Positions 5,929-29,048 of a stretch of 64,000 bases of DNA are shown here, one piece after another; positions within the stretch are counted from its first letter, which is position 1; each line of letters opens with the position of its first letter. The translations under genes were made by a program, and so were the position numbers. This stretch comes from Desulfomicrobium sp. ZS1 (GTDB taxonomy: Bacteria; Desulfobacterota; Desulfovibrionia; Desulfovibrionales; Desulfomicrobiaceae). Location: assembly GCF_024204645.1 (NCBI RefSeq), contig NZ_CP100351.1, positions 2,940,001 through 3,004,000 on the forward strand, read 5' to 3'. The notes below the pieces were generated by a model that made no database searches, had not been told where the DNA came from, and saw nothing but the letters and a program-made list of their open reading frames with translations.

Positions 5929-8997
<3,069 letters not shown>

Positions 8998-9012
8998 CCG
9001 CACTTCATATTT

Positions 9013-12000
9013 ATGAAGCGACCCATGGCAAAAAAACTTTTCACTTCCCTGCGCTCCCGGGCGATTGTCACGCTCACTGCGATTTTCATGGCCATGGGCG
9101 TTGGTTCTGTACTCATAGTCGGGCTGATCATCATCGAACGCCTCGACACCTTCGAGCGCGACTTGGCCGCCGCCAACATACGCCGTGTGCGGAACTCGGT
9201 GCAGCAAGACATGCAGCGTGTCGACAACCTGCTCAAAGACTGGGCGTGGTGGGATGACACCTATCAATTCATGTCCACAGCCTCGGAAGATTATGCGGAA
9301 AGCAACATCACTCCGGACGTGTTCCTCAACCAGGGTCTCAGCGTCATAGCTTTCGTGACAAAGGAGGGGGAGATCCTGCATGCCTCGCAGATGTCCCGCG
9401 AAGGAGATGCGCTCGAAGCCCCCAGCAAAGCCCTGCTCAGCTATGTCAAAAGAATCAGCCTCTCCTCGCCCCCCGAAGATCTTTTCAGCGGCGCCCCCGC
9501 GCTGGTGAACATCGACGGCTCATTATGGATCGCCGCAAACCGCGCAATACTGACATCCCAGCAGACCGGGCCGGCGCGCGGCCGGCTGTGGATGATCCAG
9601 AAAATCGACGCTGCCTACGTTGAAAAGCTGACCCTGCGCACGGAACTCGCGCTGCAAATCCACGTCACCGAGGACGGAACGCTGCCGCAAGCCATGCGCG
9701 TGCTGCAAACCGATCCTCCGGCGTCAGGCGAAGCTCTCGTTGTTCCCGAGCGCGCCCTCATCTGGAGCGCCCTGCTTCTTTCCGACGCTGCAGGCGGCCC
9801 GCCCGTAGCCATCATCGCCAATGCCCCCAGGGAACTGACCATCCTGGCCCGCGCGACAATGAAGACCAGCCTCGCGGTGCTCATTGTGTTCGGGGCGATC
9901 GGCTTCTTCAGCGGCTTCGCCTTTCTCGAAAAAAACATCCTGTCCCGGCTGTCGCTGCTGAGCTCGCGCGTCAAAAACGATGCTCCGGACGCTCAATTTT
10001 GCAGGCTGGATCAAAACTGCGACGAAATAGACCAGCTCTCGAATCTGGTGGACACAGCTTTTACGTCCATCCGTGAGAACGAGCGTTTTCTCAAGGAAAT
10101 CCTGGGCGCGATCAAGGTCGGTGTCATGCTCATCCGCAAGGAAGACAGGGTCATCGTCAGCGCCAACCCATATGCGAGCGCTCTGGCCGGACTGTCCGAA
10201 AAGGACATTGTGGGCAAGGTCTGCCATCAGTTCACCTGCGGCGCTGAAATCGGGAAATGCCCGGTCTGTGATCTCGGGCAGAACCTCGACAATTACAAAT
10301 GCGAGTTTCTCGGTAGCGACGGCGAACGGATTGATATCCTCAAATCCGTGACCCTCATCACCCGAAACGATCAGAAATATCTGCTTGAAACATTCTGGGA
10401 CATCCGCGAGATCGAACGCACGCGGCACCTCCTGGAGGAATCCGAAGAGCGTTACCGCGCGATTTTCTTGAACACCGGCACGCCAGGAATCCTCATCAAC
10501 GAGGATACGTCCATCGACGTCGCCAACACGGAATTTCTCCACCTGGCCGGGGTCACGCAGGACGACATGCGCCAGAACCCCTCCTGGACGCGCTTTTTCC
10601 ATCCGGATGATGTGCAGAGGATGCTTCGTTACCACGCACAGAGGCGCCAGGACGAAGCCATCGCGCCAAGAACCTATGAAGCGCGGCTGGTGGATTCCTC
10701 GGGAGAGCTGCATCATGTCAAGCTCACCGTGGCCATGATCCCGCGCACCCAGCAATCCATCGCATTCCTGCTCGACATCACCGACATCAAGAACGCCGAA
10801 TGGAAGCTGCATGAACTCGCCTACACGGACACCCTGACCGGCCTGCCCAACCGCCTCTGCGCCATGGAAAGACTGGACAGGACGGTGCAGGGCCTTTCCC
10901 CTGCAACCGGGAGCCTCGCCGTTTTCCTGCTCGACCTCGACGATTTCAAGGTCATCAACGACTCCTGGGGACACGCCGTGGGCGACATCGTACTCATGGA
11001 GGCGGGGCAACGGCTTGTTTCCATCCTCAAGACATCCGAGTTGGTGGGCCGCCTCGGCGGCGACGAGTTCATCATCGTATCCGATGCCAACAAATCCAAG
11101 GACGAGTATGTCAAATTGGCCCAAAAACTCATCAACGCCCTGTCCGCGCCATTCCAATTCGGAGATTCTGAAACATATCTCAGCGTGAGCGTCGGCGTAG
11201 CCGTCTTCCCCGAAGATGGGAACACCGCCGGACAACTGATCCGGTGCGCGGATCTGGCCATGTATCAGGCCAAAGCCCTCGGCAAGAACATCTACCGGTT
11301 CCATTCTCCGGAACTGACTTTAAAAGCCCAGCGCCGGATGGAAATCGAGAGTGAGTTGCGCCTGGCTCTGGACTCCGGAGAAATTGTCGCCTTCTTCCAG
11401 CCGGTCATCGACCTCGAAACCCGGAAAATTGTCGGGGCCGAAGCCCTGGCACGCTGGTGCAAACGGGACGGCACCCTTATCTCTCCAATGGATTTCATAC
11501 CCGTGGCAGAACAGACAAGCCTCATCACCGACATCGACTTCAGCATCCTGTCGCAGGCCTGCCGTCAGGCCCGGGGCTGGGATGAGGACGGATTGGGGCG
11601 GCTGCGCATCTCCTGCAATATCTCCGCGCGGCATTTCCAACGCGGAAACCTGCCCAGGGAAGTGATGCGCGTCCTTGAGGCCAGCAAACTGCCCCCAAGT
11701 CAACTGACCCTTGAAGTCACCGAAACGGTATACATGGAAAACATCGACCAGGTGCGCAGCATACTCGAATCCATTGACGCCATGGGCGTTTCGAGCGCCC
11801 TCGACGACTTTGGAACCGGCTATTCCTCCTTGTCGTACGTGCGGTCCCTTTCCTTCGATGTCTTGAAAATCGACAAGTCCTTCGTGAAAAACCTGCCGGA
11901 AGAGTCCTCGCTCGCACTCATTCGCGCCATGCTCGGCATCGCCATCAGCCTGGAGATAATCCCCTTGGCCGAAGGCATAGAGACCCAGGAACAATTCCTG

Positions 12001-12105
12001 CTGCTCAAATCACTGGGCTGCAAGCTTGGACAGGGCTACCTGTTTTCACCTCCGGTGCCGGCCGCGCAGTTTCAAGAACTGCTCAAAAAACAGAACAAAA
12101 TATGA
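9013..12105 (+). CDS. Cyclic-di-GMP turnover protein: CHASE4-like sensor, PAS, GGDEF, EAL
   Basis: Dual-domain cyclic-di-GMP enzyme of 1030 residues. TM1 is at about 18-45, followed by a CHASE4-like extracytoplasmic region (DNLLKDWAWWDDTYQF) to about 290, and TM2 near 293-312. Two PAS-like segments follow; the first carries Cys residues (CHQFTCGAEIGKCPVC) that could bind metal or sense redox. The GGDEF motif is intact at 682-686 (synthase-competent) and the EAL motif at 810-812 with EVTET and DDFGTGYSSL is intact (phosphodiesterase-competent). The dominant activity cannot be told from sequence. The gene begins ATG at 9013, with an alternative ATG at 9025, 15 bases after the hybrid kinase, suggesting co-transcription. 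Confidence 0.93.
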   Translation: MKRPMAKKLFTSLRSRAIVTLTAIFMAMGVGSVLIVGLIIIERLDTFERDLAAANIRRVRNSVQQDMQRVDNLLKDWAWWDDTYQFMSTASEDYAESNITPDVFLNQGLSVIAFVTKEGEILHASQMSREGDALEAPSKALLSYVKRISLSSPPEDLFSGAPALVNIDGSLWIAANRAILTSQQTGPARGRLWMIQKIDAAYVEKLTLRTELALQIHVTEDGTLPQAMRVLQTDPPASGEALVVPERALIWSALLLSDAAGGPPVAIIANAPRELTILARATMKTSLAVLIVFGAIGFFSGFAFLEKNILSRLSLLSSRVKNDAPDAQFCRLDQNCDEIDQLSNLVDTAFTSIRENERFLKEILGAIKVGVMLIRKEDRVIVSANPYASALAGLSEKDIVGKVCHQFTCGAEIGKCPVCDLGQNLDNYKCEFLGSDGERIDILKSVTLITRNDQKYLLETFWDIREIERTRHLLEESEERYRAIFLNTGTPGILINEDTSIDVANTEFLHLAGVTQDDMRQNPSWTRFFHPDDVQRMLRYHAQRRQDEAIAPRTYEARLVDSSGELHHVKLTVAMIPRTQQSIAFLLDITDIKNAEWKLHELAYTDTLTGLPNRLCAMERLDRTVQGLSPATGSLAVFLLDLDDFKVINDSWGHAVGDIVLMEAGQRLVSILKTSELVGRLGGDEFIIVSDANKSKDEYVKLAQKLINALSAPFQFGDSETYLSVSVGVAVFPEDGNTAGQLIRCADLAMYQAKALGKNIYRFHSPELTLKAQRRMEIESELRLALDSGEIVAFFQPVIDLETRKIVGAEALARWCKRDGTLISPMDFIPVAEQTSLITDIDFSILSQACRQARGWDEDGLGRLRISCNISARHFQRGNLPREVMRVLEASKLPPSQLTLEVTETVYMENIDQVRSILESIDAMGVSSALDDFGTGYSSLSYVRSLSFDVLKIDKSFVKNLPEESSLALIRAMLGIAISLEIIPLAEGIETQEQFLLLKSLGCKLGQGYLFSPPVPAAQFQELLKKQNKI

Positions 12106-12163: not shown

Positions 12164-12165
12164 TT

Positions 12166-12194
12166 TTGACGCCAAGCCCTGAATTGGATAGATA
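12166..12194 (+). promoter_or_regulatory. Candidate promoter of the CydA-like/octahaem operon
   Basis: TTGACG and TAGATA are 17 bases apart, about 57 bases upstream of the start codon. The -35 box is good and the -10 box is poor. Confidence 0.3.
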
Positions 12195-12250: not shown

Positions 12251-13318
12251 ATGGACCCCACCCAGCTTATCCCGCACGCCCTCCCCATCCCGGTGGAATG
12301 GGGCTGGTTTTACTTCTTTCAGGTACTCACGTTCATCCTGCACATTCTGGTCATGAACATCATGCTCGGCGCGTCCGTCATCGCCCTGGTCCACCATCTG
12401 CGCGGCAAGACCGAGACGGAACCCCTGACCAAATCGATTTCCACCAAACTGCCCTTCACCATCGCCTTCGCCGTCAACTTCGGCGTTGCGCCCCTGCTCT
12501 TCATGCAGGTCCTGTACGGGCAATTCCTCTACACCAGCAGCGTGCTCATGGCCGTGTATTGGCTGTCGGTCGTAGGGCTGGTCATCGTCGCGTACGCAAG
12601 CGCCTACATCTATGATTTCCGCTATGTGCCGCTGGGCAGCCTGCGCACGATCTTCATCGCCGTGACCACACTGTGCCTCTTGGTCACCGCCTTCATCTTC
12701 ACCAACAACATGACCTTCATGCTCAGCCCTGCCGGATGGTCAGCATACTTTGACAATCCATGGGGCACGCTGCTCAACCTGAGCGATCCGACCGTGCTGC
12801 CGCGCTACCTGCACTTTGTGGCGTCATCCATTGCGGTGGCGGGTCTGGCCCTGGCCATTTTCTACAGCATAAAAGTCAAGAACGACCCCGCAGCGCAGCG
12901 TTGGGTCCGGCACGGCATGAACTGGTACGCCTACACGACCATGGCGCAGATGGCGCTCGGCCTGTGGTTCCTCTCCGCCCTGCCCGAGCCCGTCAAGCAT
13001 CTCCTGCTGGGCGGGTCCCTGCCGCACACCCTGATCTTCGCGTTCAGCGCAAGCCTGGGCATCTTCAGCATCAGCAACGCGCTGAGCTACAATGTCGGCA
13101 CTTCGACGGTCCTGTCGCTGACCACCGTAATCCTCATGATCCTGCTGCGCGACATGGTCCGGGACGCCTATCTGGCCCCGTATTTTCAGGTCAATGACCG
13201 CGTCGTCACCGGCGAGTATCTCCCACTTGTCCTTTTCATCCTGACCCTGGCGGCCGGTCTGTGCGTCGTAGCCTGGATGCTCCGTACCGCCGCCACGGAC
13301 TCGGAGGTGCGCTCATGA
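12251..13318 (+). CDS. CydA-like integral membrane subunit
   Basis: Polytopic protein of 355 residues with about eight to nine hydrophobic helices and no haem-c motif. Several segments resemble cytochrome bd oxidase subunit I: AFAVNFGVAPLLFMQVLYG in an early helix pair, and the run GWSAYFDNPWGTLLN then DPTVLPRYLHFVA with a conserved Arg/His. It probably sits in the inner membrane and may bind haem b or quinol. It has a GGAGAAG ribosome site and overlaps the octahaem fusion gene by four bases (ATGA), so the two are translationally coupled and probably form one complex. Family assignment is by motif resemblance only; the exact subfamily is not known. Confidence 0.7.
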   Translation: MDPTQLIPHALPIPVEWGWFYFFQVLTFILHILVMNIMLGASVIALVHHLRGKTETEPLTKSISTKLPFTIAFAVNFGVAPLLFMQVLYGQFLYTSSVLMAVYWLSVVGLVIVAYASAYIYDFRYVPLGSLRTIFIAVTTLCLLVTAFIFTNNMTFMLSPAGWSAYFDNPWGTLLNLSDPTVLPRYLHFVASSIAVAGLALAIFYSIKVKNDPAAQRWVRHGMNWYAYTTMAQMALGLWFLSALPEPVKHLLLGGSLPHTLIFAFSASLGIFSISNALSYNVGTSTVLSLTTVILMILLRDMVRDAYLAPYFQVNDRVVTGEYLPLVLFILTLAAGLCVVAWMLRTAATDSEVRS

Positions 13319-15960
13319 ACTTTCCAATCTGGGAACTCCACTGGGCCGGCGGCGGACTGCTGATCGCGCTCATCGCCGTCTTTCATGTCTATATCGCCCA
13401 TTTTGCCGTGGGCGGCGGACTCTTTCTCGTCCTCACCGAACACCTGGGCTATCGCCGGCAGTCCCCGGCAATCCTTGATTATACAAAACGCCACACCAAG
13501 TTCTTCCTGCTCGTGACCATGGTCCTGGGCGGAATCACCGGGGTGGGCATCTGGTTCATCATCTCGCTGGTCGCGCCTGCGGCCACGAGCCAGCTCATCC
13601 ACACCTTTGTCTTTGCCTGGGCCATCGAATGGGTCTTTTTCCTGTGCGAAATCGTATCGTTGTTCATCTATTTCTACACCTTCGGAAAAATGGGGCGGCG
13701 CAACCATCTCACCATGGGCTGGCTCTATTTCTTCTTCGGCTGGATGTCGCTGTTCATGATCAACGGCATCATCGGCTTCATGTTGACCCCCGGCGACTGG
13801 TTGGAGACAAAAGACTTCTGGGACGGACTCTTCAACCCCTCCTTCTGGCCGGCACTGGCATTCAGGACGTTCATCGCCCTGATTCTGGCCGGACTTTACG
13901 GCTTCGTCACCGCCACCTGGGAAAAGGATCCCAAGACCCGCGAAACCCTGGTCCGCTATTGCGCGACATGGCTGCTGGCTCCCTTCGCCTTCCTGCTCCT
14001 GTCGGGGTGGTGGTACGTGCACGTGCTGCCCGAAGGGCCGCAGGCCATGGTCCTGGGCGCAAACCCGGAAATCGCCCCGTACCTACAGGGCTTTCTGTGG
14101 ATATCAGTCGTTCTCTTTGCCGGCGGACTGATCATGGCCGTGCGCATGCCTGCCGCGATCAAGCGGCCCATGGCGCTGGTCCTGCTCGTCATCGGCCTGT
14201 TGTACATGGGCTGTTTTGAAACCACGCGCGAGGCCGGCCGCAGACCCTACCTGATCCACGGCTACATGTATTCCAACGCCATCCTGGTCGGCACTGAAGA
14301 CGCCATCGCCGCCGAAGGCTTTCTGCAGACCTCCGGCTGGCACCGGAACCAGGAGATCACCCCCGAAAACGCCATGGCCGCAGGCCGTGAGATCTTTCGC
14401 GGCCAGTGCGCCGCCTGCCACTCCATCGGCGGCCCGCTGCACAACATCAAACGCCTGAGCGCGCAGTTCGGGACCGTTGGCCTCGAAGCCCAGATCGCGG
14501 GCATGGGCAAGATTTACTCCTACATGCCGCGTTTTGCCGGCACAGCGCAGGAGCGCAAGGCCCTGGCCGCCTACATCGTGCATGACCTGGTCGAAGCTCC
14601 CGTGACGGAACAGCATGCCCGGCCCCGCCCGGAAGTCGCACTTGAAATCCCGGCCTTCAACGCGGATGAAGCCGAGTATGTGCTCCTGTCCTGGTGCACG
14701 CTGGGCGAAAAATGCATCTCCGACAGTGACAGCCGCTTCTCCATTTTGCCCCCGGGCAGCACTCTCATGGCCCAGCTCATCCGACGCGGCCCCCTGCCTG
14801 AACTGGTGACCGAAAACGTCGAAATCACGTACACCGCCCCGGCGGGCTTCGAAAACCCGGCCAACCATGTGGAATTCTGGAAATACGCGCCGTCCCTGGT
14901 TGGCAAGGAGCTGCCCCAAAACATCAGCGCCAAGGGGCTGGGCATGTCGGGCGTGATGAAGCTGGGCGAACAGGGCTCGAACTTTGTGGCGGACGGCATC
15001 CCTGTGCTGCCCTACATGGACGACGGAACCATCAATCCCTACCCCGTCTTCACCATCGAAGCCAAGGACACGGCCAGCGGCGAGATTCTGGCAACCACCA
15101 AGGTCGTAGCCCCGATCTCCACGGAAATCGGCTGCAAGAACTGTCATGGCGGCACCTGGCGGCACGAGGGAGCCATGGGCATTTCCGTGACCACGGCCTC
15201 CGACGTGCTGGCCAGACACGACCGGCGTCACAAGACCCGGTTGCTGCCTGAGGCTGAAGCGGGCAAGCCCGTGCTCTGCCAGAGCTGTCACCCAGATCCG
15301 CTGCTCAAAGCCACTGGCAATCCAGAGCTTTTGAACCTCCCGGCCGCCATCCACGGCTTCCACGCCAACTACCTGTCCGGCCAGCCCGGCGCGGAGCCAT
15401 GCCACTCCTGCCATCCCACCGGGCCGGACAGCTACACCTATTGCGCCCGGGGCACGCATGCGGCCAAGGGCCTGACCTGCGTCAACTGCCATGGCACCCT
15501 GGAAGACCACGCCCTGTCGCTCTTGCGCGGGGAAAAAGAAGCGGGCAAGCCCAAGGCCGACCTGCTCATGCGTCACATCAAGCCCAGACTGGTCGCTTCT
15601 GTCGAAGAAATCGAACCGCGCACACCGTGGAACGATCAACCGGATTGTCTGAACTGCCACGTGGACTTCGAGCCCCCGCACGACGCGGAGCCTTCCGCTT
15701 TCAACCAGTGGGTGCGCGGACCGGAAGGGCTTTATCGCATGCGTACCGATGACGCGGGACTCATGTGCGAATCATGCCATGGTTCGACCCACGCCGAATA
15801 TCCGGGCACAAACGCGTTTCATCCGGATCTCGACGCCATCCAGCCCCTGCAGTACCAGGGACATCCGGGTCCCATCGGGAGCAAGGGCAACTGCGCGGTG
15901 TGCCACACCGAAGACATGTACGACGAATTCCATCATCCCAACATTCTCGGCGCACTCTAA
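13315..15960 (+). CDS. CydA-like membrane protein fused to an eight-haem cytochrome c domain
   Basis: An 881-residue fusion. Residues 1-330 form about eight membrane helices ending in EAGRRPYLIHGYMYSNAI, which closely recalls the GRQPW region of cytochrome bd subunit I. Then CAACH at 365 begins a class I-like cytochrome c unit, and seven further CxxCH motifs follow at 607, 655, 696, 722, 778, 818 and 860 in a multihaem region. Likely role: electron exchange between the membrane quinone pool and periplasmic haems. Whether the final acceptor is oxygen, a periplasmic cytochrome or something else cannot be read from the sequence. The start at 13315 is chosen because GGAGG lies 7 bases upstream and it overlaps the preceding stop. 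A strong terminator follows. Confidence 0.85.
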   Translation: MNFPIWELHWAGGGLLIALIAVFHVYIAHFAVGGGLFLVLTEHLGYRRQSPAILDYTKRHTKFFLLVTMVLGGITGVGIWFIISLVAPAATSQLIHTFVFAWAIEWVFFLCEIVSLFIYFYTFGKMGRRNHLTMGWLYFFFGWMSLFMINGIIGFMLTPGDWLETKDFWDGLFNPSFWPALAFRTFIALILAGLYGFVTATWEKDPKTRETLVRYCATWLLAPFAFLLLSGWWYVHVLPEGPQAMVLGANPEIAPYLQGFLWISVVLFAGGLIMAVRMPAAIKRPMALVLLVIGLLYMGCFETTREAGRRPYLIHGYMYSNAILVGTEDAIAAEGFLQTSGWHRNQEITPENAMAAGREIFRGQCAACHSIGGPLHNIKRLSAQFGTVGLEAQIAGMGKIYSYMPRFAGTAQERKALAAYIVHDLVEAPVTEQHARPRPEVALEIPAFNADEAEYVLLSWCTLGEKCISDSDSRFSILPPGSTLMAQLIRRGPLPELVTENVEITYTAPAGFENPANHVEFWKYAPSLVGKELPQNISAKGLGMSGVMKLGEQGSNFVADGIPVLPYMDDGTINPYPVFTIEAKDTASGEILATTKVVAPISTEIGCKNCHGGTWRHEGAMGISVTTASDVLARHDRRHKTRLLPEAEAGKPVLCQSCHPDPLLKATGNPELLNLPAAIHGFHANYLSGQPGAEPCHSCHPTGPDSYTYCARGTHAAKGLTCVNCHGTLEDHALSLLRGEKEAGKPKADLLMRHIKPRLVASVEEIEPRTPWNDQPDCLNCHVDFEPPHDAEPSAFNQWVRGPEGLYRMRTDDAGLMCESCHGSTHAEYPGTNAFHPDLDAIQPLQYQGHPGPIGSKGNCAVCHTEDMYDEFHHPNILGAL

Positions 15961-16487: not shown

Positions 16488-18188
16488 ATGACCCAACCTG
16501 CTGAAGTCAAAGACATCGCGCATCTGACAAACAAAGCCAAAACGTCTCCACGCCTCATGAGCGGGCAATTGACCGTCCTCTCCATACTGGTGGCCATGGT
16601 ACCGATCCTGTGCATCGCGACCCTGGGCTATGTCTTTTACGATGCGGCGTTCCGGGAAAAAACCCACGCGCTCCTGGCGCAAAAAGCCATGAGTTCGGTC
16701 CAGAACCTGGACGAATTTCTCGAAGAAAAAATCTCCAACCTCCGGCAAGAGACAGACGCAGCGACCATCTCGGAACTGTCGGACCCCGGCCATCTGCGCG
16801 CCCGCCTGCACTCACTGCAAAACGCCTATCAAGGCGTTTTCATCGGCCTTGACCTCGTCGACGCAAGCGGCACGATCATCGCGAGGACCACGGACGAAAA
16901 AACGCAAACAGTCTCCGCCGAAAAATCATGGTTTACGCAGGCCATAAGCCGCCCACAGTTTGTCAGCAATCTGGCCTTGTGCGAGACGTACTGCTTCCTT
17001 GCCGTACGCATCACCGCCGAACAGACCGTCTGGCTGCTGCGAGCCCACCTCGATCCGGATCTGATCCAGGAAAAGACCCGGCTCTTTCATCCCGGAGGAC
17101 CGGGAGGAGCTTTCTTTCTGGACCGTCAGGGCGCGTACAGCGCCGGCAGTGGCGCCGAACCGGGCAGCAGAGAAGCCGCGCAACTGCTGGCCCAGCAATT
17201 TTTCCCCGAAGGCAGGCCTGTCGTACTCGAAGCCAAGGACGCAAACGGCCAGGTCAATCTTTACGGCTGCGCCCCAGTGCGATCCACAGGCAACATCCTG
17301 GCCATCCATCAGCCCAAAGCCCAGCTGCTGCATCCGCTGTTCCAGGCCCGCCTTCTGGCCCTGGCCATCATTATCGCCGGTTTCGCCGGTATCGTCGTCA
17401 CCGCGCTGGCTCTGGCCAAACGGACGGAGCAACGACTGCTCAAAGCCGAACTGGAACTGCAGCAGATGCAAAAACACATCATGGACGCAGGCAAGCTGGC
17501 CGCCATTGGCGAACTGGCCGCCGGGGTCGCTCACGAGATCAACAATCCCCTGGCCATCATGATGGAGAACGCGGGCTGGATTCAGGATCTGCTCAAATCG
17601 GATGACCCGCACAGTGAAGAGAACACCGCAGAAATCTTCTCTTCCCTGCAAACCATCACCACCCAGGGCCACCGCTGCCGGGAGATCACGCACAAGCTGC
17701 TCAGTTTCGCACGCAAGGCCGACAGCGCGATAAAGGCGGTGAACATCAACTCGCTGCTGGATGACATCGCCGGGTTCGCACGGCAGAAGGCCAAATATCG
17801 GAATGTGGAAATCAGGCTGAGCCTCGACCCCAACGCGGGGGAAGTCGACAGCTCGCCTGCGGAAATCCAGCAGATCATCCTGAACCTCGTCAACAACGCC
17901 ATCGACGCCATCGAACACGACAACGGACTGGTGCAATTGCGTTCCGTCCGCGAGACCAGCTTCGTGCGCATCGATGTCGAGGACAACGGCCAAGGCATCC
18001 CTGATGACATTCGGCCCCAGATTTTCGAGCCGTTCTTCACCACCAAGGACGCCGGCAAAGGTACGGGCCTGGGTCTGTCCATTTGCCGGGATCTTCTCTC
18101 CAAAATGGGCGGCTCCATCAGCGTGGACTCCACCCCTGGCCACGGATGCGTTTTTCATGTCCGCTTGCCTGCGAGTTCCCCAAAATGA
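16488..18188 (+). CDS. Sensor histidine kinase with extracytoplasmic Cache-like sensor
   Basis: A 566-residue membrane kinase. TM1 is at about 30-52, an extracytoplasmic sensor spans about 53-285, TM2 is near 288-308, then a short coiled coil runs directly into HisKA with no clear HAMP or PAS. His349 in AAGVAHEINNP is the phospho-acceptor. The ATPase N box (ILNLVNNAIDAI) and G boxes (DNGQGIP, GTGLGLSI) are intact. The HEINNP type kinase usually partners NtrC-like regulators, but none is adjacent; the cognate regulator is not identified. The next gene begins about 100 bases later. Confidence 0.92.
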   Translation: MTQPAEVKDIAHLTNKAKTSPRLMSGQLTVLSILVAMVPILCIATLGYVFYDAAFREKTHALLAQKAMSSVQNLDEFLEEKISNLRQETDAATISELSDPGHLRARLHSLQNAYQGVFIGLDLVDASGTIIARTTDEKTQTVSAEKSWFTQAISRPQFVSNLALCETYCFLAVRITAEQTVWLLRAHLDPDLIQEKTRLFHPGGPGGAFFLDRQGAYSAGSGAEPGSREAAQLLAQQFFPEGRPVVLEAKDANGQVNLYGCAPVRSTGNILAIHQPKAQLLHPLFQARLLALAIIIAGFAGIVVTALALAKRTEQRLLKAELELQQMQKHIMDAGKLAAIGELAAGVAHEINNPLAIMMENAGWIQDLLKSDDPHSEENTAEIFSSLQTITTQGHRCREITHKLLSFARKADSAIKAVNINSLLDDIAGFARQKAKYRNVEIRLSLDPNAGEVDSSPAEIQQIILNLVNNAIDAIEHDNGLVQLRSVRETSFVRIDVEDNGQGIPDDIRPQIFEPFFTTKDAGKGTGLGLSICRDLLSKMGGSISVDSTPGHGCVFHVRLPASSPK

Positions 18189-18224
18189 CTCTTTCGTCTG
18201 ACAAGAGAGAGCCATCCTCTCAAT

Positions 18225-18253
18225 TTGACTCCATAATTTTCTCTCTGTAAGAC
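18225..18253 (+). promoter_or_regulatory. Candidate promoter of the GspE-like gene
   Basis: TTGACT and TAAGAC are 17 bases apart in an otherwise empty 100-base gap. Moderate -35, weak -10. Confidence 0.35.
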
Positions 18254-18290
18254 CTTTTCGCCACTGATCAACTCTCACCGTGGAGCCCCA

Positions 18291-20171
18291 ATGCCCAAGG
18301 ATAATCCCAAGAACAGCGCGCCCACCAGCCACGGCGAACTCATCGACATCCTTATCAAAGAAGGGCTGCTCTCGGAAAAACAGGCGCTCCATGCGGCGCG
18401 GCTGCGTACAAAGCTCGTCCGCCCCAAGCCTTTGCTCGAAATCGTCAAGGAACTCGGGTACGTCACCGCCGACCAGGTCACCACGGCCATCCGCAAGAAC
18501 AAACTGTCCATGCGCATCGGAAGTTTGCTGCTGGAACTCGGACTGATCAGCGAGGCGGACCTTGAAGCGGCCTTTCAGATCCAGCGCACGAGCAAGACCC
18601 CGCAAAAACTTGGCGAAGTCCTCGTCAACAACAATTTCATCAAGGAATTCAAACTCCTTGAAGCGCTCTCCCTGCAGCTTGGCTACCCCTTTGTCGATCC
18701 CAGATTTACAAGCCTCGACATCTCCCTTCTGCATCAGATTCCGGCCACGTACAGAAACAAGGCATCCTATGTGCCCATCGAGAGACAGGAGCATCAGGTC
18801 GTCGTGGCTTTTGCCAATGTTCTGGACATGGACGACCAGGAGGAGGCGCGCACCATTTTTCCTGAAGGGATTCTGCCGGCCATCGCCACGCGCGAGTCCA
18901 TCATCGAGACCTACCAGCGCTTCGAACGCGGATCACAGACCAAGGAATCTCTTGATGACGATTCGGCCTCGGGCATCGTCGAACGCATCATCCTCGACGC
19001 CATAGAACTCGACGTCAGCGACATCCACATGGAACCCCTCCCGGACCGCCTGCGCATCCGCTTCCGCCGGGACGGGGTGCTTGAACCCTACAAGGACTTC
19101 CCGCGCGAGATAATCCCCAACATCTCAAGCCGCATCAAGATCATGTGCAAGGCGGATATCGCCGAGAAGCGCCGCCACCAGGGCGGACGCATCCTGTTCG
19201 AATACCCCGGCGGCGAGCTCGACATGCGCGCCTCCTTTTACGTGACCATCCACGGCGAGGCCATCGTGCTGCGCCTGCTGAACCGGCAGGGCAACCTCAT
19301 CGACATCGCAAGCGTCGGAATGTACCCGAAAACACTCAAACGCTTCCTTGACGGAGCTCTGTCCAGGCCCAGCGGCGTCGTAATCATCACCGGCCCCACC
19401 GGGTCGGGCAAGACGACCACGGTCTACAGCTGCATCCACCACCTGAACACGCCGCTTCTGTCCATCATCACGGCCGAAGAACCCGTCGAGTACGTCATAC
19501 CGGGCATCTCCCAGTGTTCCATCGATCCCAAGATCAACCTGACCTTCGAGGAGACCCTGCGTCACATCGTGCGCCAGGACCCCGACGTCATCCTCATCGG
19601 CGAGATCCGCGACAATTATTCGGCAGAAGTGGCCGTGCAGGCGGCCCTGACCGGGCACAAGGTCCTGACCACCTTTCACACCGAAGACTCCATCGGCGGC
19701 CTGATCCGGCTCATGAACATGGACATCGAGGCCTTCCTCATCTCCTCCACCGTGGTCAGCGTGGTCGCGCAGCGCCTGCTGCGGCGCATCTGCCCGGAGT
19801 GCTCCCAGCCGTACAAGCCAAGCCCCGGCGAGCTGCAGCTCTTCGGCTACACGCAGGCCACGATCCAGAGCTCGAATTTTCGCAAGGGCACGGGCTGCGC
19901 CCACTGCCGCTACACTGGGTATCGAGGCCGCATCGCGGTGTTCGAACTGCTCATTCTCGATGAAATGGTCCGTGCCGCAATCCTGGAGCGGCGGACCAGC
20001 TTCGACATCCGCAAGATCGCCCTGGAGAGCGCAGGGCTTGTGACCTTGTTCGAGGAAGGTCTGGTCAAGGCCGCCGAAGGCCAGACCACTCTGGAAGAGG
20101 TCATGCGCTGCCTGCCTCTTGTTCTGAAACCACGCCCACTGGAAGAAACCCGCCGCCTGCTCGGAGTCTAG
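18291..20171 (+). CDS. GspE/PilB-type secretion ATPase with MshEN-like N-terminal repeats
   Basis: Hexameric AAA-like motor of type II secretion or type IV pilus systems, 626 residues. The N-terminus has helical repeats; two of 24 residues, 75-98 (RIGSLLLELGLISEADL...Q) and 106-129 (KLGEVLVNNNFIKEFKL...Q), fit the R/K-L-G-xx-L...L...Q pattern of the cyclic-di-GMP-binding MshEN domain. Then come the N2 domain, Walker A GPTGSGKTT (368-376), an Asp box (LIGEIRD) and a C-terminal tetracysteine zinc site (CPEC...CAHC). No pseudopilin, platform or secretin genes are adjacent, so the motor serves a system encoded elsewhere or an orphan role. It is followed two bases later by an HDOD gene. Confidence 0.92.
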   Translation: MPKDNPKNSAPTSHGELIDILIKEGLLSEKQALHAARLRTKLVRPKPLLEIVKELGYVTADQVTTAIRKNKLSMRIGSLLLELGLISEADLEAAFQIQRTSKTPQKLGEVLVNNNFIKEFKLLEALSLQLGYPFVDPRFTSLDISLLHQIPATYRNKASYVPIERQEHQVVVAFANVLDMDDQEEARTIFPEGILPAIATRESIIETYQRFERGSQTKESLDDDSASGIVERIILDAIELDVSDIHMEPLPDRLRIRFRRDGVLEPYKDFPREIIPNISSRIKIMCKADIAEKRRHQGGRILFEYPGGELDMRASFYVTIHGEAIVLRLLNRQGNLIDIASVGMYPKTLKRFLDGALSRPSGVVIITGPTGSGKTTTVYSCIHHLNTPLLSIITAEEPVEYVIPGISQCSIDPKINLTFEETLRHIVRQDPDVILIGEIRDNYSAEVAVQAALTGHKVLTTFHTEDSIGGLIRLMNMDIEAFLISSTVVSVVAQRLLRRICPECSQPYKPSPGELQLFGYTQATIQSSNFRKGTGCAHCRYTGYRGRIAVFELLILDEMVRAAILERRTSFDIRKIALESAGLVTLFEEGLVKAAEGQTTLEEVMRCLPLVLKPRPLEETRRLLGV

Positions 20172-23551: not shown

Positions 23552-23690
23552 GATTCCTCCAGGACAGAATGTTTGTGCCTCATCATGTAGAGCAAAGCCC
23601 GTTCGTTGAAAAGCCGCCTCTTGCTTTTTGAGCCGGTCCTTGCCAGATCATGGGTTCCAAAACACAATTCTTCACGCGCGCGAGGTTCTC

Positions 23691-26600
23691 ATGTCCAACC
23701 CCAAAAACTGGGTCATCGCCCTGCTCCTTCTGGTCATCGCGGGCCAGACATGGCTGCTCAAAGACCGCTTCTCAAGCGACGAACCGCAAGCCCTAACCGT
23801 AAGCGGGGTCAGCCTCGACAGCGCCATGCGCACCACCCTGTCCGTAGAGTTCGACCAGCCCGTCCCGGACTCCGTACGCGCACAGGCGGCCCCGGCCGCC
23901 ATCGAGCCCGTAGCCGCAGGGCAATGGGTCTGGACCAATCCCTACACCTTGAAATTTCTGGCCCAGACGCCCCTGCCGCTCGACATGCAGTACTCCCTGA
24001 CCCTCAGCCCCGTGGTTTTTCCGGACAAGCTCCTGCACGCCGAGCGCAGCAGGCTGATCCGCACCGGCAGCTTTGCCGTGCAGGAACTGACCGTGAACGA
24101 ACTGGCCTCCGACGCCGGTCCGGACATGGTCGAACTGGAGGGACGCGTCGTCTTCAATGCGCCCGTGGACCCGGAAAAGCTGCTCGCTGCCATGCGCCTG
24201 AGCGAAGCGGATGGCGCTTCCGTCGAACTTTCGCTCCTGACCCAGTGGCGCACGACCAGCTTTGGCTTCCGCAGCGCGCCCGTGCGCAAGGATACGGCCG
24301 GCCGCATCCTGACCCTGCGGCTGGCTCCGGAGCTGACCGTGGCCGAAAAGAGCCTGGCCCTTGGGCAGGAATTCAAGCGGGACATCGAGCTTCGCCTGGA
24401 CCCGGTGCTGCGCATCGTTGCCGTCAGCCCCCAGGCCGACAAGGACCTTTCGCGCATCAACCTTGATTTTTCCGCGCCCGTCAGCGCCGCCGCCATCCGC
24501 GAACTGCTGCGCATCGAGCCCGAAGCCCGGATTTCGGTCTCGGCCCACGGCAAGACCGCCTCCCTGACCGGCAAACTCGAACCCGGAGCCACCTATACAG
24601 TCCGCATCGCCAAGGGTCTTCTGGCCGAGGACAAAGCCGTGCTTGAAGCGCCTTTCGAGCAGACCCTGCGCATGCCGGACCTCCCCCCAAGCGTGGACTT
24701 CTCGTCCGAGGGCATGTTCCTGCCGCGCCAGGGCCAGGGCTTGCTTGGAGTCGAATACGTCAACGCCGACGCAGTGGAACTGACCGTGAGCCGGGTCTTC
24801 CCCAACAACCTGAGCGTCCTCTTCCAGGATTACGGCTACTCCATCTTCGACAGCACCGCCGCCCGGGACTCGGTGCCGTATCATCTGGGCAGCGAAATTC
24901 ACCGCGAGACCTTCAGCGTGACCTCCCCGTCGAACACGGTGCAGGAGCGAACCCTGTCCATGTCCGAGCTTATCCCCGACCAGCGCCCAGGGCTGTACAA
25001 GCTTGGTCTGAGCCTGCCTGCGGACTATCGCGGCGCAACGCGCTGGGTCCTGCGTACGGACATCGGCCTCGTGGCCAAGCAGGACGCGGCGGGCTTTCTG
25101 GTCTGGGCCAATTCCCTGGGGGACTTGCGCGCCCTGGAAGGCGTGGAACTGACGCTCCTGAGCTTCAAGAACCAGGTACTGGGCACCACCCGCACCAACT
25201 CGGACGGCCTGGCCCGCATCCCCTCCGCCGGAAACGAGGGGGAACTGGGCTCGCCGGCCATGATCCTGGCCCGCCACGGAGAGGATTTCAGCTTCATCTT
25301 TCTGGACCGTTTCCGCATCGACACCACTTGGCTCGATGTCAGCGGCGCCTCCATCAGCCAGACCGGCCTGCAGGCCTACCTTTACGGCAAGCGCGACATC
25401 TACCGCCCCGGCGAAACCCTGGACGGCGCGATGCTGGTGCGCGACGGCCGCATCGGCACGCCCCCCGACCTGCCCATAACCGTTGAACAACGCGACCCCG
25501 AAGGTCGCCTGCTGCGCACCATGAACCTGGTCCTGGACCGTGGCATGGCCGGTTTCAGTCTGGACATCCCGGACTGGTCCCTGACCGGGCACTATCTGCT
25601 GCAAGCCATGAGCGGCGGCCAGGTCATCGGTTCCTACTCCTATCAGGTCGAAGAATTCATCCCCGACCGCCTGAGCGTGGAGATCGCATCCACCGAAACC
25701 GGGGGCGAACCGGGCCGGAAGCTGACCTTTGACGTGATTTCACGCTACCTCTTCGGCCCGCCAGCCTCGAATCTGGCCGTCTCGGTCAAGGCGCGGCTGC
25801 TGGCCGCCGATTTCGCGCCCAAGGGCTTTGAGGCCTACAGCTTCGGCGATCCGGGCAAGAACTTCGAGCCCCTGCCGCTTTTGACCACGGATGGCCGCCT
25901 CGACGCCGACGGCCGGGCCGCCTTCGGGGTGGAAATCCCCAAGGATCTGACCCCGCCGCTGGCGCTCTGGGCCGAGTTCACCGGTCGCGTGCGCGAACAG
26001 GGCGGGCGCGGCGTGACCGCCAGAAAACGCATCCCGGTGCATGCCTACGCCTTGTATCCCGGCATCAAACGGCCCGGATCCATGGAGCTTGAGCCGCGCA
26101 AGCGGGCCGTGTTCGAGTTCGTGACGTTAAACCCCGAGGGCAAAAAAATCGCGCACCCGGAGCTCGTCGCGACCCTGTTTCAGGATCAGTGGCAGACGGT
26201 CATGCGCCGGACGCAGTCCGGGTTCAACTACGAATCGGTGCGAAATCCGGTGGAAATCTCGACCCAGCGCGTGAGCGCAGGCGACGGCGCGGGCTCCTTC
26301 TCCGTCACGCCGCCGGATTACGGCTCGTACCGGGTCCGTCTCGGCGACCCCAAGAGCGGGGCGGCCTCGGAGCTGGAATTCTACTGCGGCGGCTGGGGCT
26401 ACTCGCCCTGGGCGGTCAAGAACCCGGCCCGCCTGGAACTGATCCCGGACAAGAGGGGCTATCAGGCAGGCGAAACGGCCTCCATCCAGATCCGCTCGCC
26501 CTTTGCGGGCAAGGCGCTGGTCACGGTTGAAGGATCAAAAGTGGAGCACCTTGAAGTCGTCGAATTAATCGGGAACACGGGCCAGATCCGCATTCCGGTG

Positions 26601-29048
26601 CGTGAGCAGTGGCAGCCCAATGTGCATCTCACCGCCACCCTGATCCGCCGGGCCACGGACATCGCCCCCGGCAGCGCAGGGCGCGCCTTCGGAGCCACGC
26701 CCATTTTCGTGGACAGCCTCATAAACCGCATGGGCCTGCAGGTTGACGCCCCGGATGAGGTCCGCCCGCAGACCGACCTTGAAATCCGGGTCCAGGCCCA
26801 GCCACGCGCACGGGTGACCGTGGCCGTGGTCGACGAGGGCATCATGCAGCTGGCCGGGGGCAAAAATCCGGACCCCTTTGCCCATTTCTACGCCCCGCGC
26901 GCCCTGGATGTGATCAGCTACGACAATTTCGCCTTCATGTTCCCGCACGTCGGCGCGGCCAGGCCTCTGGCCGGAGGCGGCGACGACCTGGGCGGGGCCT
27001 CGTCCTTCATGCGCACCGAAGGCATCCGCCGCGTAAGGCCCGTGACCTTCTGGTCCGGCGTGCTCGACGCCGACCAGACAGGGACGGTGAGCCACCGCGT
27101 ACGCCTGCCCGACTTCCAGGGCGCGCTGCGCATTGTCGCCGTCGGCAACCAGGGCAAAAGCTTCGGCGCGGGCACGGCCATGACCCGCGTGCGCACGCCC
27201 CTGGTCCTGACCCCGACCCTGCCCCGCTTCCTGGCGCTGGGCGACGAGATCGAGATCCCCCTGACCCTGCGGAATGACACGCCCTCCGCCGGATCGTTCC
27301 GCATCAGCGCCAGCGTCAGCGGCCCGGCAACGCTTGGAACCATGCCCGCCCCCCTGACCCTGGAACCGGGACGGGAAAACACCGTCTACCTGCCCCTGCG
27401 CTGCGGCATGGAGGAAGGCAAGGTCACGCTGTCCTTCACCGCCACAGGAGGCGGCGAGACCGCCACGGCCGGGGAAGAGCTTGATCAGCGATCCCCTTTA
27501 CCCGTGACCCGGATGATGGAAAGCACGGTCCTTGACGCGGCCTCGGGCCAGATCGGCGCGGCGCTGCCGGACACGTTCCTGCCGGGATCGGTCGAACGCA
27601 CGGTGCGGCTCTCCACCCGCCCGCTGCTGCGCTACTCCGGGCACCTGGAGAACCTGCTCGGCTACCCGTACGGCTGCGCCGAGCAGACCGTGTCCAAGGC
27701 CTTTCCGCTCCTGCACTTCGGAGCCCTGGCCCGGGAACTGGCGCCGGGACGCTTCAATACCACCGGCCCGGCCGGACTGGTGCAAGGGGCCATCCGCCGC
27801 CTGCAGACCATGCAGACCGGACAGGGCGGCTATGCCTTCTGGCCTGGAGACACCGAGCCCGACCCGTGGGTTTCGGCCTATGTCTGCCACTTCCTACTGG
27901 AAGCCAGGCTGGCCGGACACACCATCCCCGAGCGCATGCTCGACAGCGCATTCTATTACCTTGAATCACTGGCCAACCCCGAAGCCGGGAGCTCGGCGCA
28001 AAAGATCGAACAGGCCGCCTATGCGCTCTATGTCCTGGCGCTGGGCAAGAGGTCCAACCTGGGCAGCCAGGACTATCTGCGCACGACCTTTGAAAAATCC
28101 CTGAGCGGCGTGGCGCGAACCCTGCTGGCCGGGGCCTATCTGGAGACGAGCAACCAGTCCGCGGGCTTCACGCTGCTGCACGCGGCCCCGGCCATCGACG
28201 ACAAACGCCGGGAAAGCGGCGGCAACCTGGGTTCGGGCCTGCGCGACAGGGCGCTCATCGCGCTCATTCTGCTCAAAAGCGTACCAGACGATCCGAGGCT
28301 GCCGGAACTCATGACCCGCCTTGGGTCGGAGCTTGGCCATGGCGGATGGCATTCGACCCAGGAGACAAGCCTGGCCTTCATGGCTTTGGGAAAATATCTG
28401 GCCGCCCTGGATGACAGCCGACCCTTCGCGGGCACGCTGACCTGGCCTGACGGGGCGCAGGTTTTCGAGGAAACAAAGCTCTTCATGCGCGAGAATATCC
28501 AGACCACGGGCGCGTTGACCCTGGAAAAAACGCCTGCGGACCGGGCCATCTTCGCCACCGTGCTGACCTCGGCCACGCCCAAGGCCGGCGCACACGCGCC
28601 CATCAGCCTGGGGCTTGAAGTCGAACAGATGCTGCTGCGCGAAAACGGGCTGCCCCTGGAAGGTGACAGCGTCAGCCAGGGGGATCTGGTTATCATGCGC
28701 ACCAAGGTGCGCAGCACCTCCGGGCCTATCGACAACGTGGTCGTGCAAAGTTTGCTACCTGCAGGTCTGGAAGTGGAAAACCCGCGTCTGGCGACCACGG
28801 AGCGGCTCGACTGGATGGAGGAAGGGGCGACGCTTGAAGGCCATCAGGACCTGCGGGACGACCGCATCCTTGTCTTCACCACCCTTGATGGAAACGGCTG
28901 GAAGACGCGTTTCAGCGTGCTGAGAGCCGTGACTCCGGGGCGCTTCACGTTCCCACCGGTGCAGGCCGAGGCCATGTACCATCCCGGCCTGCGCGCCGGC
29001 GGGGCGCTGGGGGCCGTCACCGTCACGCGAGAAACGCCGGTCCCATGA
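23691..29048 (+). CDS. Bacterial alpha-2-macroglobulin family protein (YfhM-like)
   Basis: Large periplasmic protease-trap protein of 1785 residues, thought to protect the cell envelope from foreign proteases and usually paired with PbpC. The N-terminus has a hydrophobic anchor (VIALLLLVIAGQTWLL) but no lipobox Cys, unlike E. coli YfhM. Multiple macroglobulin domains follow, then the A2M core and the thioester motif GCAEQ with Cys1329, followed by the alpha-helical thioester domain (GGYAFWPGD, WVSAYVCHFLLEA). The start at 23691 is chosen over an open upstream extension because it has a GAGG site and gives the anchor. It overlaps pbpC by four bases. Confidence 0.95.
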   Translation: MSNPKNWVIALLLLVIAGQTWLLKDRFSSDEPQALTVSGVSLDSAMRTTLSVEFDQPVPDSVRAQAAPAAIEPVAAGQWVWTNPYTLKFLAQTPLPLDMQYSLTLSPVVFPDKLLHAERSRLIRTGSFAVQELTVNELASDAGPDMVELEGRVVFNAPVDPEKLLAAMRLSEADGASVELSLLTQWRTTSFGFRSAPVRKDTAGRILTLRLAPELTVAEKSLALGQEFKRDIELRLDPVLRIVAVSPQADKDLSRINLDFSAPVSAAAIRELLRIEPEARISVSAHGKTASLTGKLEPGATYTVRIAKGLLAEDKAVLEAPFEQTLRMPDLPPSVDFSSEGMFLPRQGQGLLGVEYVNADAVELTVSRVFPNNLSVLFQDYGYSIFDSTAARDSVPYHLGSEIHRETFSVTSPSNTVQERTLSMSELIPDQRPGLYKLGLSLPADYRGATRWVLRTDIGLVAKQDAAGFLVWANSLGDLRALEGVELTLLSFKNQVLGTTRTNSDGLARIPSAGNEGELGSPAMILARHGEDFSFIFLDRFRIDTTWLDVSGASISQTGLQAYLYGKRDIYRPGETLDGAMLVRDGRIGTPPDLPITVEQRDPEGRLLRTMNLVLDRGMAGFSLDIPDWSLTGHYLLQAMSGGQVIGSYSYQVEEFIPDRLSVEIASTETGGEPGRKLTFDVISRYLFGPPASNLAVSVKARLLAADFAPKGFEAYSFGDPGKNFEPLPLLTTDGRLDADGRAAFGVEIPKDLTPPLALWAEFTGRVREQGGRGVTARKRIPVHAYALYPGIKRPGSMELEPRKRAVFEFVTLNPEGKKIAHPELVATLFQDQWQTVMRRTQSGFNYESVRNPVEISTQRVSAGDGAGSFSVTPPDYGSYRVRLGDPKSGAASELEFYCGGWGYSPWAVKNPARLELIPDKRGYQAGETASIQIRSPFAGKALVTVEGSKVEHLEVVELIGNTGQIRIPVREQWQPNVHLTATLIRRATDIAPGSAGRAFGATPIFVDSLINRMGLQVDAPDEVRPQTDLEIRVQAQPRARVTVAVVDEGIMQLAGGKNPDPFAHFYAPRALDVISYDNFAFMFPHVGAARPLAGGGDDLGGASSFMRTEGIRRVRPVTFWSGVLDADQTGTVSHRVRLPDFQGALRIVAVGNQGKSFGAGTAMTRVRTPLVLTPTLPRFLALGDEIEIPLTLRNDTPSAGSFRISASVSGPATLGTMPAPLTLEPGRENTVYLPLRCGMEEGKVTLSFTATGGGETATAGEELDQRSPLPVTRMMESTVLDAASGQIGAALPDTFLPGSVERTVRLSTRPLLRYSGHLENLLGYPYGCAEQTVSKAFPLLHFGALARELAPGRFNTTGPAGLVQGAIRRLQTMQTGQGGYAFWPGDTEPDPWVSAYVCHFLLEARLAGHTIPERMLDSAFYYLESLANPEAGSSAQKIEQAAYALYVLALGKRSNLGSQDYLRTTFEKSLSGVARTLLAGAYLETSNQSAGFTLLHAAPAIDDKRRESGGNLGSGLRDRALIALILLKSVPDDPRLPELMTRLGSELGHGGWHSTQETSLAFMALGKYLAALDDSRPFAGTLTWPDGAQVFEETKLFMRENIQTTGALTLEKTPADRAIFATVLTSATPKAGAHAPISLGLEVEQMLLRENGLPLEGDSVSQGDLVIMRTKVRSTSGPIDNVVVQSLLPAGLEVENPRLATTERLDWMEEGATLEGHQDLRDDRILVFTTLDGNGWKTRFSVLRAVTPGRFTFPPVQAEAMYHPGLRAGGALGAVTVTRETPVP

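Follow-up and report, generated by a model that had tools for sequence, protein, structure and literature searches.

In the canonical cytochrome bd oxidase CydAB of Escherichia coli, His186 and Met393 of CydA bind haem b558, Glu445 binds haem b595 and Glu99 faces haem d (PMC6853902). Within the bd superfamily, an OR-C family has been named (PMC10839748, PMC13189123), and the OR-N family of Nitrospirota and Nitrospinota is described with two CydA paralogues (CydAA') and a putative cytochrome c donor (PMC10839748, PMC12342949); these OR-N relatives probably use cytochrome c and not quinol (PMC10839748). Here we describe a pair of genes in a 64,000-nucleotide stretch of the Desulfomicrobium sp. 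ZS1 genome (contig NZ_CP100351.1, positions 2,940,001 to 3,004,000; "the window"), one encoding a CydA-like membrane domain fused to eight c-type haem sites (the large, or octahaem, subunit) and the other a second CydA-like subunit (the partner). The name OR-C stands for "with c haem", and the family is said to go back to Murali, Gennis and Hemp in 2021. The pair is like OR-C in its CydA core, its O2-side ligand residues, the apparent lack of a quinol site, a CydA subunit with a c haem motif and the second CydA-like subunit, but its large subunit is extended by seven more c haems and a beta domain; the likeness is to the definition of the family, and not to a position in a tree.

Among the other systems compared, canonical CydAB (PF01654; E. 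coli cydA, locus L113, and the copy in the window's own genome, L001) shares with the pair the CydA fold and the residues equivalent to His19, Glu99, Glu107, Glu445 and Arg448. The pair differs from it in lacking the b558 ligands and Q-loop residues, in having eight c haem sites, and in a partner that Pfam does not recognise as CydB and whose profile is nearer to that of the CydA domain with which it is paired. Proteins with a single c haem, here called monohaem CydA-c (L152-L159 and L162), share the core residues, the haem c after helix 8 and the same kind of partner, but have no heptahaem module. OR-N, compared by its description only, is similar in its two CydA paralogues and putative cytochrome c donor, but a heptahaem module is not mentioned in the available parts of the articles on it. 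No mention of an octahaem CydA was found in the literature searched, which was available in part and did not include the 2021 work, so that such an absence is unproven. Because the residues of the O2 site are kept, the quinol side is lost and eight c haems are gained, the pair probably reduces O2 with electrons from periplasmic cytochromes, and we judge it rather probable, from these sequence comparisons, that it is a quinol-independent, cytochrome-c-fed bd-type O2 reductase wired by eight c haems.

The eight CxxCH motifs of the large subunit stand at residues 365, 607, 655, 696, 722, 778, 818 and 860, and the motif EAGRRPYLIHG occupies residues 306-316. An AlphaFold2 model (predicted local distance difference test, pLDDT, 90.9) shows eight long helices, at residues 12-47, 51-86, 88-121, 128-157, 177-201, 206-237, 254-274 and 280-308. 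The helices, motif and haem sites that the original prediction had read from the letters were thus all recovered. Chance occurrence of the CxxCH motifs was rejected, since 5000 shuffles of the protein gave a mean of 0.022 and a maximum of one, and 99 of the 100 complete copies of the gene encode eight (in the remaining one, L112, the frame looks broken). The claim that a bd-family membrane domain is fused to c haems also holds: Pfam found Cyt_bd_oxida_I (PF01654; E = 2.3e-11, 43.4 bits against a cut-off of 26.2), limited to the first half of the profile (6-192 of 418), and, toward the C-terminus, Cytochrome_CBB3, Cytochrome_C7 and MtrC/MtrF-like domains. Residues ~7-323 of the model matched the CydA chains of solved bd oxidases with Z-scores of 30.5-32.4 and a root-mean-square deviation (rmsd) of 2.5-3.7, and the next fold family was alternative complex III (Z = 17.8). 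By Pfam score and model alike, the domain therefore belongs to the CydA fold.

The haem ligands were assigned by alignment to CydA of E. coli and to the window genome's own CydA. In E. coli, we take His19, Glu107 and Arg448 to be O2-side haem residues in addition to Glu99 and Glu445. The five residues His19, Glu99, Glu107, Glu445 and Arg448 correspond to H24, E105, E112, E306 and R309 of the large subunit, all of which are conserved in the 26 members aligned (17 octahaem proteins and nine monohaem relatives), as is the c haem site after helix 8. The original prediction was to fall if no axial ligands were found on structural alignment; in this sequence alignment the O2-side ligand residues, among them the equivalents of His19, Glu99 and Glu445 that mark the bd superfamily, are present, so that the prediction is not refuted. 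The b558 ligands, on the other hand, are replaced (His186 by F183 and Met393 by V266 in the window protein), their equivalents being missing from all 17 octahaem and all nine monohaem rows, and Lys252 and Glu257 of the Q-loop align to gaps in the same 26 rows. A canonical quinol oxidase was rejected because of these losses; by this alignment, the large subunit appears to have retained the O2 side and lost the quinol side. The spacing from E105 to E112 is seven, against eight in E. coli, for which a one-residue insertion in helix 3 relative to Geobacillus has been described (PMC6853902), so the window protein seems to be without that insertion.

Behind the membrane domain, the domain with the first CxxCH motif resembles in fold the NirS domain that binds haem c (Z = 6.4), and the invariant M404 is likely the sixth ligand of its haem. 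The best fold match of the beta domain was weak (CrdA, Z = 5.0), and the whole-protein comparison hardly probed the heptahaem domain. An NDLGMHC-like motif in the beta domain of many relatives, which reads CTLGEKC in the window lineage (residues 461-467, window 14695-14715), was rejected as a metal site because it is not conserved. In the heptahaem module, seven proximal histidines and seven further ones (635, 680, 683, 715, 826, 873 and 874) are invariant; the latter, with the nearly invariant H732, are possible distal ligands. Since the conserved histidines suffice for bis-histidine ligation, the module looks like a wire and not a catalytic site. A catalytic multihaem reductase was rejected on this ground and because NCBIfam multihaem models scored far below their cut-offs. 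Matches to the module were found in 18 of the 148 genomes of the phylum set, in eight as the fusion and in ten in other proteins only. Outside the fusion it forms single multihaem cytochromes of ~440-1030 residues with 6-10 CxxCH motifs (13 loci, from nine of these ten genomes and from G160), with signal peptides or lipoprotein-like starts by eye, and one of them (L180) adjoins a molybdopterin oxidoreductase with a twin-arginine translocation (Tat) signal. Because the module also exists alone, the octahaem protein appears to combine a core of the monohaem CydA-c type with a periplasmic cytochrome module.

The partner matched no family in Pfam (E up to 1) or NCBIfam, and no credible PDB match was found by sequence or profile. 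Its own profile, however, matched the large subunit's CydA domain (probability 96.3%, E = 2e-9, 269 columns), and its model (pLDDT 93.5) aligned with CydA chain 5doq_A over 334 of 355 residues (Z = 28.7, rmsd 3.3), the next matches after CydA being subunits of alternative complex III and polysulfide reductase (Z = 16.1-19.0). On these two grounds we regard the partner as a CydA paralogue, as had been proposed for this upstream gene, invisible though it is to Pfam. The top template modelling score (TM-score) in Foldseek went to a CydB chain (9r2g_D), the CydA and CydB folds being alike; with no Pfam match and a profile closest to the large-subunit CydA domain, the partner is not a recognisable CydB. 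Against a canonical CydA profile it gave no significant match (1.1%, E = 0.049), whereas the large subunit reached 60.6% (E = 8.3e-5) against the same profile. M1, H31, G40, L83, P160, W163, H188, G237, M296 and R300 of the partner are invariant in 26 of 26 sequences from octahaem and monohaem forms, and H188 lies opposite E. coli His186 in the low-confidence profile alignment (1.1%); the partner may thus have a haem b or quinone site. In three monohaem loci (L152-L154; Pfam was run on L152 only), the partner beside CydA-c itself carries two CxxCH motifs.

A scan of genome contigs gave 305 candidate stretches, of which 300 encode relatives. The best 80 come from Desulfomicrobium, other sulfate reducers, Bacteroidota, Calditrichota, Nitrospirota, Ignavibacteria, Thermodesulfobacterium, Gemmatimonadales, Verrucomicrobia, Spirochaetes and others. 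The large subunit was found in 111 loci (counting the window twice and some genomes from two collections), 100 of them complete and representing 94 distinct proteins. In 104 of the 111, a partner is encoded at the same locus, and 73 of these 104 have the four-base overlap; of the seven others, five have the large-subunit gene at a contig edge, L051 also lacks a partner there, and Desulfonema magnum (L048) encodes it elsewhere in the genome. The partner was recovered in 5/5 genomes tested. Among 61 close genomes, 45 had a match and 38 were counted as octahaem; G053, represented by a tail of 25 residues at the edge of a contig, was not counted, nor were six genomes in which the match was weak or covered the CydA-c part only. 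Clustering of the neighbourhoods revealed no further gene kept with the pair, the next largest cluster covering 7 of 79 loci (genes were called by a simple script and not a gene finder, and recurrent clusters were mostly judged by eye).

The alignments comprised the window with 58 of 61 non-redundant relatives for the large subunit (L052, L099 and L103 were left out), the window with 60 of 67 relatives for the partner, and 27 of 31 canonical CydA sequences. In a tree of the window, 52 of the 61 non-redundant octahaem proteins, nine monohaem proteins and 14 of the 27 canonical sequences, whose bootstrap had not settled, canonical CydA separates with full support. The octahaem state changes twice on this tree, as would be expected if it had been gained once and lost once; because three octahaem branches and the other eight monohaem rows meet in an unresolved fork, a single octahaem origin is not established. 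The remaining monohaem row, L155 (3358-4695), is nested among octahaem rows and looks like a loss of the heptahaem part; a transposase-like gene was seen upstream of it by eye. CydA-like proteins of 595-619 residues with no CxxCH motif and a weak match to the CydA domain model were also noted in L143, L145, L147 and L148.

A link to oxygen is suggested by some neighbourhoods and by co-occurrence with canonical cydA. Three loci of Desulfobulbaceae type (L097, L098 and L102) have beside the pair a divergent canonical cydA, followed by a gene taken as cydB-like from its position alone, together with genes of the DUF4492 and Rrf2 types; in L086, cydA and a ferritin gene are near it; and five loci from Nitrospirota have a gene for an ODP-type metallo-beta-lactamase shortly after the pair and also encode a chemotaxis signalling protein beside it (Pfam was run on genes of L098, L086 and L105 only). 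L086 also has, by eye, a further CydA-like N-terminus (17926-18630) near the octahaem pair and canonical cydA. In the phylum set, canonical CydA (E < 1e-100) was found in 8/8 octahaem against 54/140 non-octahaem genomes (one-sided Fisher p = 0.0007). In the set of relatives, where canonical-type matches of any kind were counted, even partial ones, the figures were 37/38 against 15/23 (p = 0.0011). The window genome itself has a canonical CydA with an adjacent CydB-like gene (by eye), eight matches to cytochrome c3 (PF02085) in six frames, and none to PF00115.

A working scheme can be proposed for the pair as an O2 reductase. The two CydA-fold subunits would form a heterodimer in the inner membrane, with the large subunit holding an active-site pair of b595/d-like haems and no b558 or quinol entry. 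Electrons would be donated by soluble periplasmic multihaem cytochromes (in Desulfomicrobium sp. ZS1, cytochrome c3) to the heptahaem module, and would flow from there through the class-I haem c and the membrane haems to O2, yielding water. Oxidation of H2 and formate feeds cytochrome c3 in sulfate reducers, and in anaerobes the system might serve O2 clearance or trace respiration on such periplasmic electrons, the quinone pool being bypassed.

Several observations weigh against an O2 reductase fed in this way. The alignment of helices 6-7, including the position of Met393, is uncertain; H29, R184, E302 (Trp441 in E. coli) and R305 are newly invariant in all 26 aligned members, so that the pocket differs from that of canonical bd oxidase; and H188 and M296 of the partner could carry another haem. 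Most of the 79 neighbourhoods contain no recognised O2-linked gene, and the window neighbours tested by Pfam are signalling genes. The co-occurrence statistics are not corrected for common ancestry, and in one genome (G041) the octahaem gene occurs with no canonical CydA. Finally, the frame is broken or stopped in four of the 38 octahaem genomes (G004, G010, G011 and G031), and also in L105, which may be sequence error or decay.

The original prediction had seen in the pair a quinone-cytochrome electron conduit. The electron path to periplasmic haems fits our results, whereas the quinone half is not supported, the b558 ligands and Q-loop being lost in the large subunit. In a modified form, which we think rather unlikely, the partner would supply a quinone site as well as a haem b (on H188 with M296 or another residue), while electrons would pass in either direction between the eight c haems and periplasmic or extracellular partners. 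The invariance of H31, H188, M296 and R300, the place of H188 opposite His186, and the conserved pairing, with the partner encoded elsewhere in the genome where the genes lie apart (L048), would all suit such a conduit. But the alignment of H188 is the one with a probability of 1.1%, a partner of 355 residues is too short for a long Q-loop, the two CxxCH motifs of the partner in L152-L154 suggest periplasmic electron input, and the O2-side residues, all kept in the large subunit, would be needless for a mere conduit.

Reduction of another small molecule, e.g. nitric oxide or peroxide, by an altered b595/d site with the same haem wire is quite improbable in our estimate. The four new invariants of the pocket would be consistent with it, as would the spread of members across many phyla, which include strict anaerobes; the O2-linked neighbours in some loci and the co-occurrence with canonical cydA argue instead for O2, and no NO- or peroxide-specific gene was recognised among the recurrent neighbourhood clusters, mostly judged by eye. 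That the protein merely resembles CydA by chance, or is a fusion made by assembly error, as the half-matched Pfam profile might hint, is refuted by the recurrence of the fusion in all but one of 100 complete copies, by the Z-scores of 30-32 and by a tree in which the copies form one family apart from canonical CydA, and has practically no probability left.

A search in a Desulfobulbaceae-type family found CydA-c-like proteins of 27-29% identity in 13 genomes (G259-G271; loci L234-L241). Truncated globins are present in 12 of the 13 and in none of five other genomes tested, and at six of the seven loci looked at, a frame with five CxxCH motifs overlaps the globin. As such a fusion is reported to be unique to cable bacteria (PMC11976967), these 13 genomes are probably those of cable bacteria. 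Eight aligned CydA-c-like proteins from them keep the equivalents of H19, E99, H186, E445 and R448 and the haem c, and have lost E107. The partner was found in none of the 13, in a run with no positive control, although the same model had found it in 5/5 genomes elsewhere. An orphan CydA homolog has been discussed for cable bacteria (PMC10030654, PMC11247825); the CydA-c-like protein may be that homolog, and it is a candidate for the missing O2 reductase of cable bacteria.

The features of the pair are listed in Table 1. The partner stop and the large-subunit start share ATGA, a four-base overlap; a mechanical open reading frame from GTG 13261 is 18 residues longer than the version from ATG 13315. 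At the promoter-like site just before the pair, TTTTGACGC (12164-12172) is identical in 9/9 aligned sequences. Large sensor proteins (hybrid kinase, CHASE4-GGDEF-EAL and histidine kinase by Pfam) flank the pair at 5929-12105 and 16488-18188 on the same strand. Farther along (23628-31423), the window encodes a bacterial alpha-2-macroglobulin and then a transglycosylase/transpeptidase penicillin-binding protein with a BiPBP_C domain.

Table 1. Features of the gene pair, in window coordinates
Feature	Position	Strand	Details
Possible own promoter (TTGACG, 17 bp, TAGATA)	12166..12194	+	consensus match only
Partner subunit gene, 355 residues, no CxxCH, CydA-fold paralogue (A'-like)	12251..13318	+	
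Large subunit gene, octahaem bd-like protein, 881 residues	13315..15960	+	ATG 13315, stop 15958-15960
Eight-helix CydA domain, residues 1-322	13315..14280	+	H24, H29, E105, E112, R184, E302, R305, E306, R309
Class-I-like monohaem cytochrome c domain, residues 340-425	14332..14589	+	CAACH 365-369
Beta-rich domain, residues 453-605, no CxxCH	14671..15129	+	weak fold matches only
Heptahaem module, residues 607-881, seven CxxCH	15133..15957	+	

A system of this kind is easily missed, as neither Pfam nor NCBIfam has a model that the partner matches. We suggest, tentatively, that the pair stands for a widespread and uncharacterised respiratory class in many phyla, anaerobes included: a quinol-site-free bd-type O2 reductase with eight covalent haems leading to periplasmic cytochromes. 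If so, the cytochrome-fed branch of the bd superfamily, which in the available parts of the literature is inferred from sequence, could be put to the test in a compact system of two genes. A quinone-free route from periplasmic H2 and formate oxidation to O2 would then be available to sulfate reducers and other anaerobes, and part of the O2 consumption of these anaerobes might be explained.

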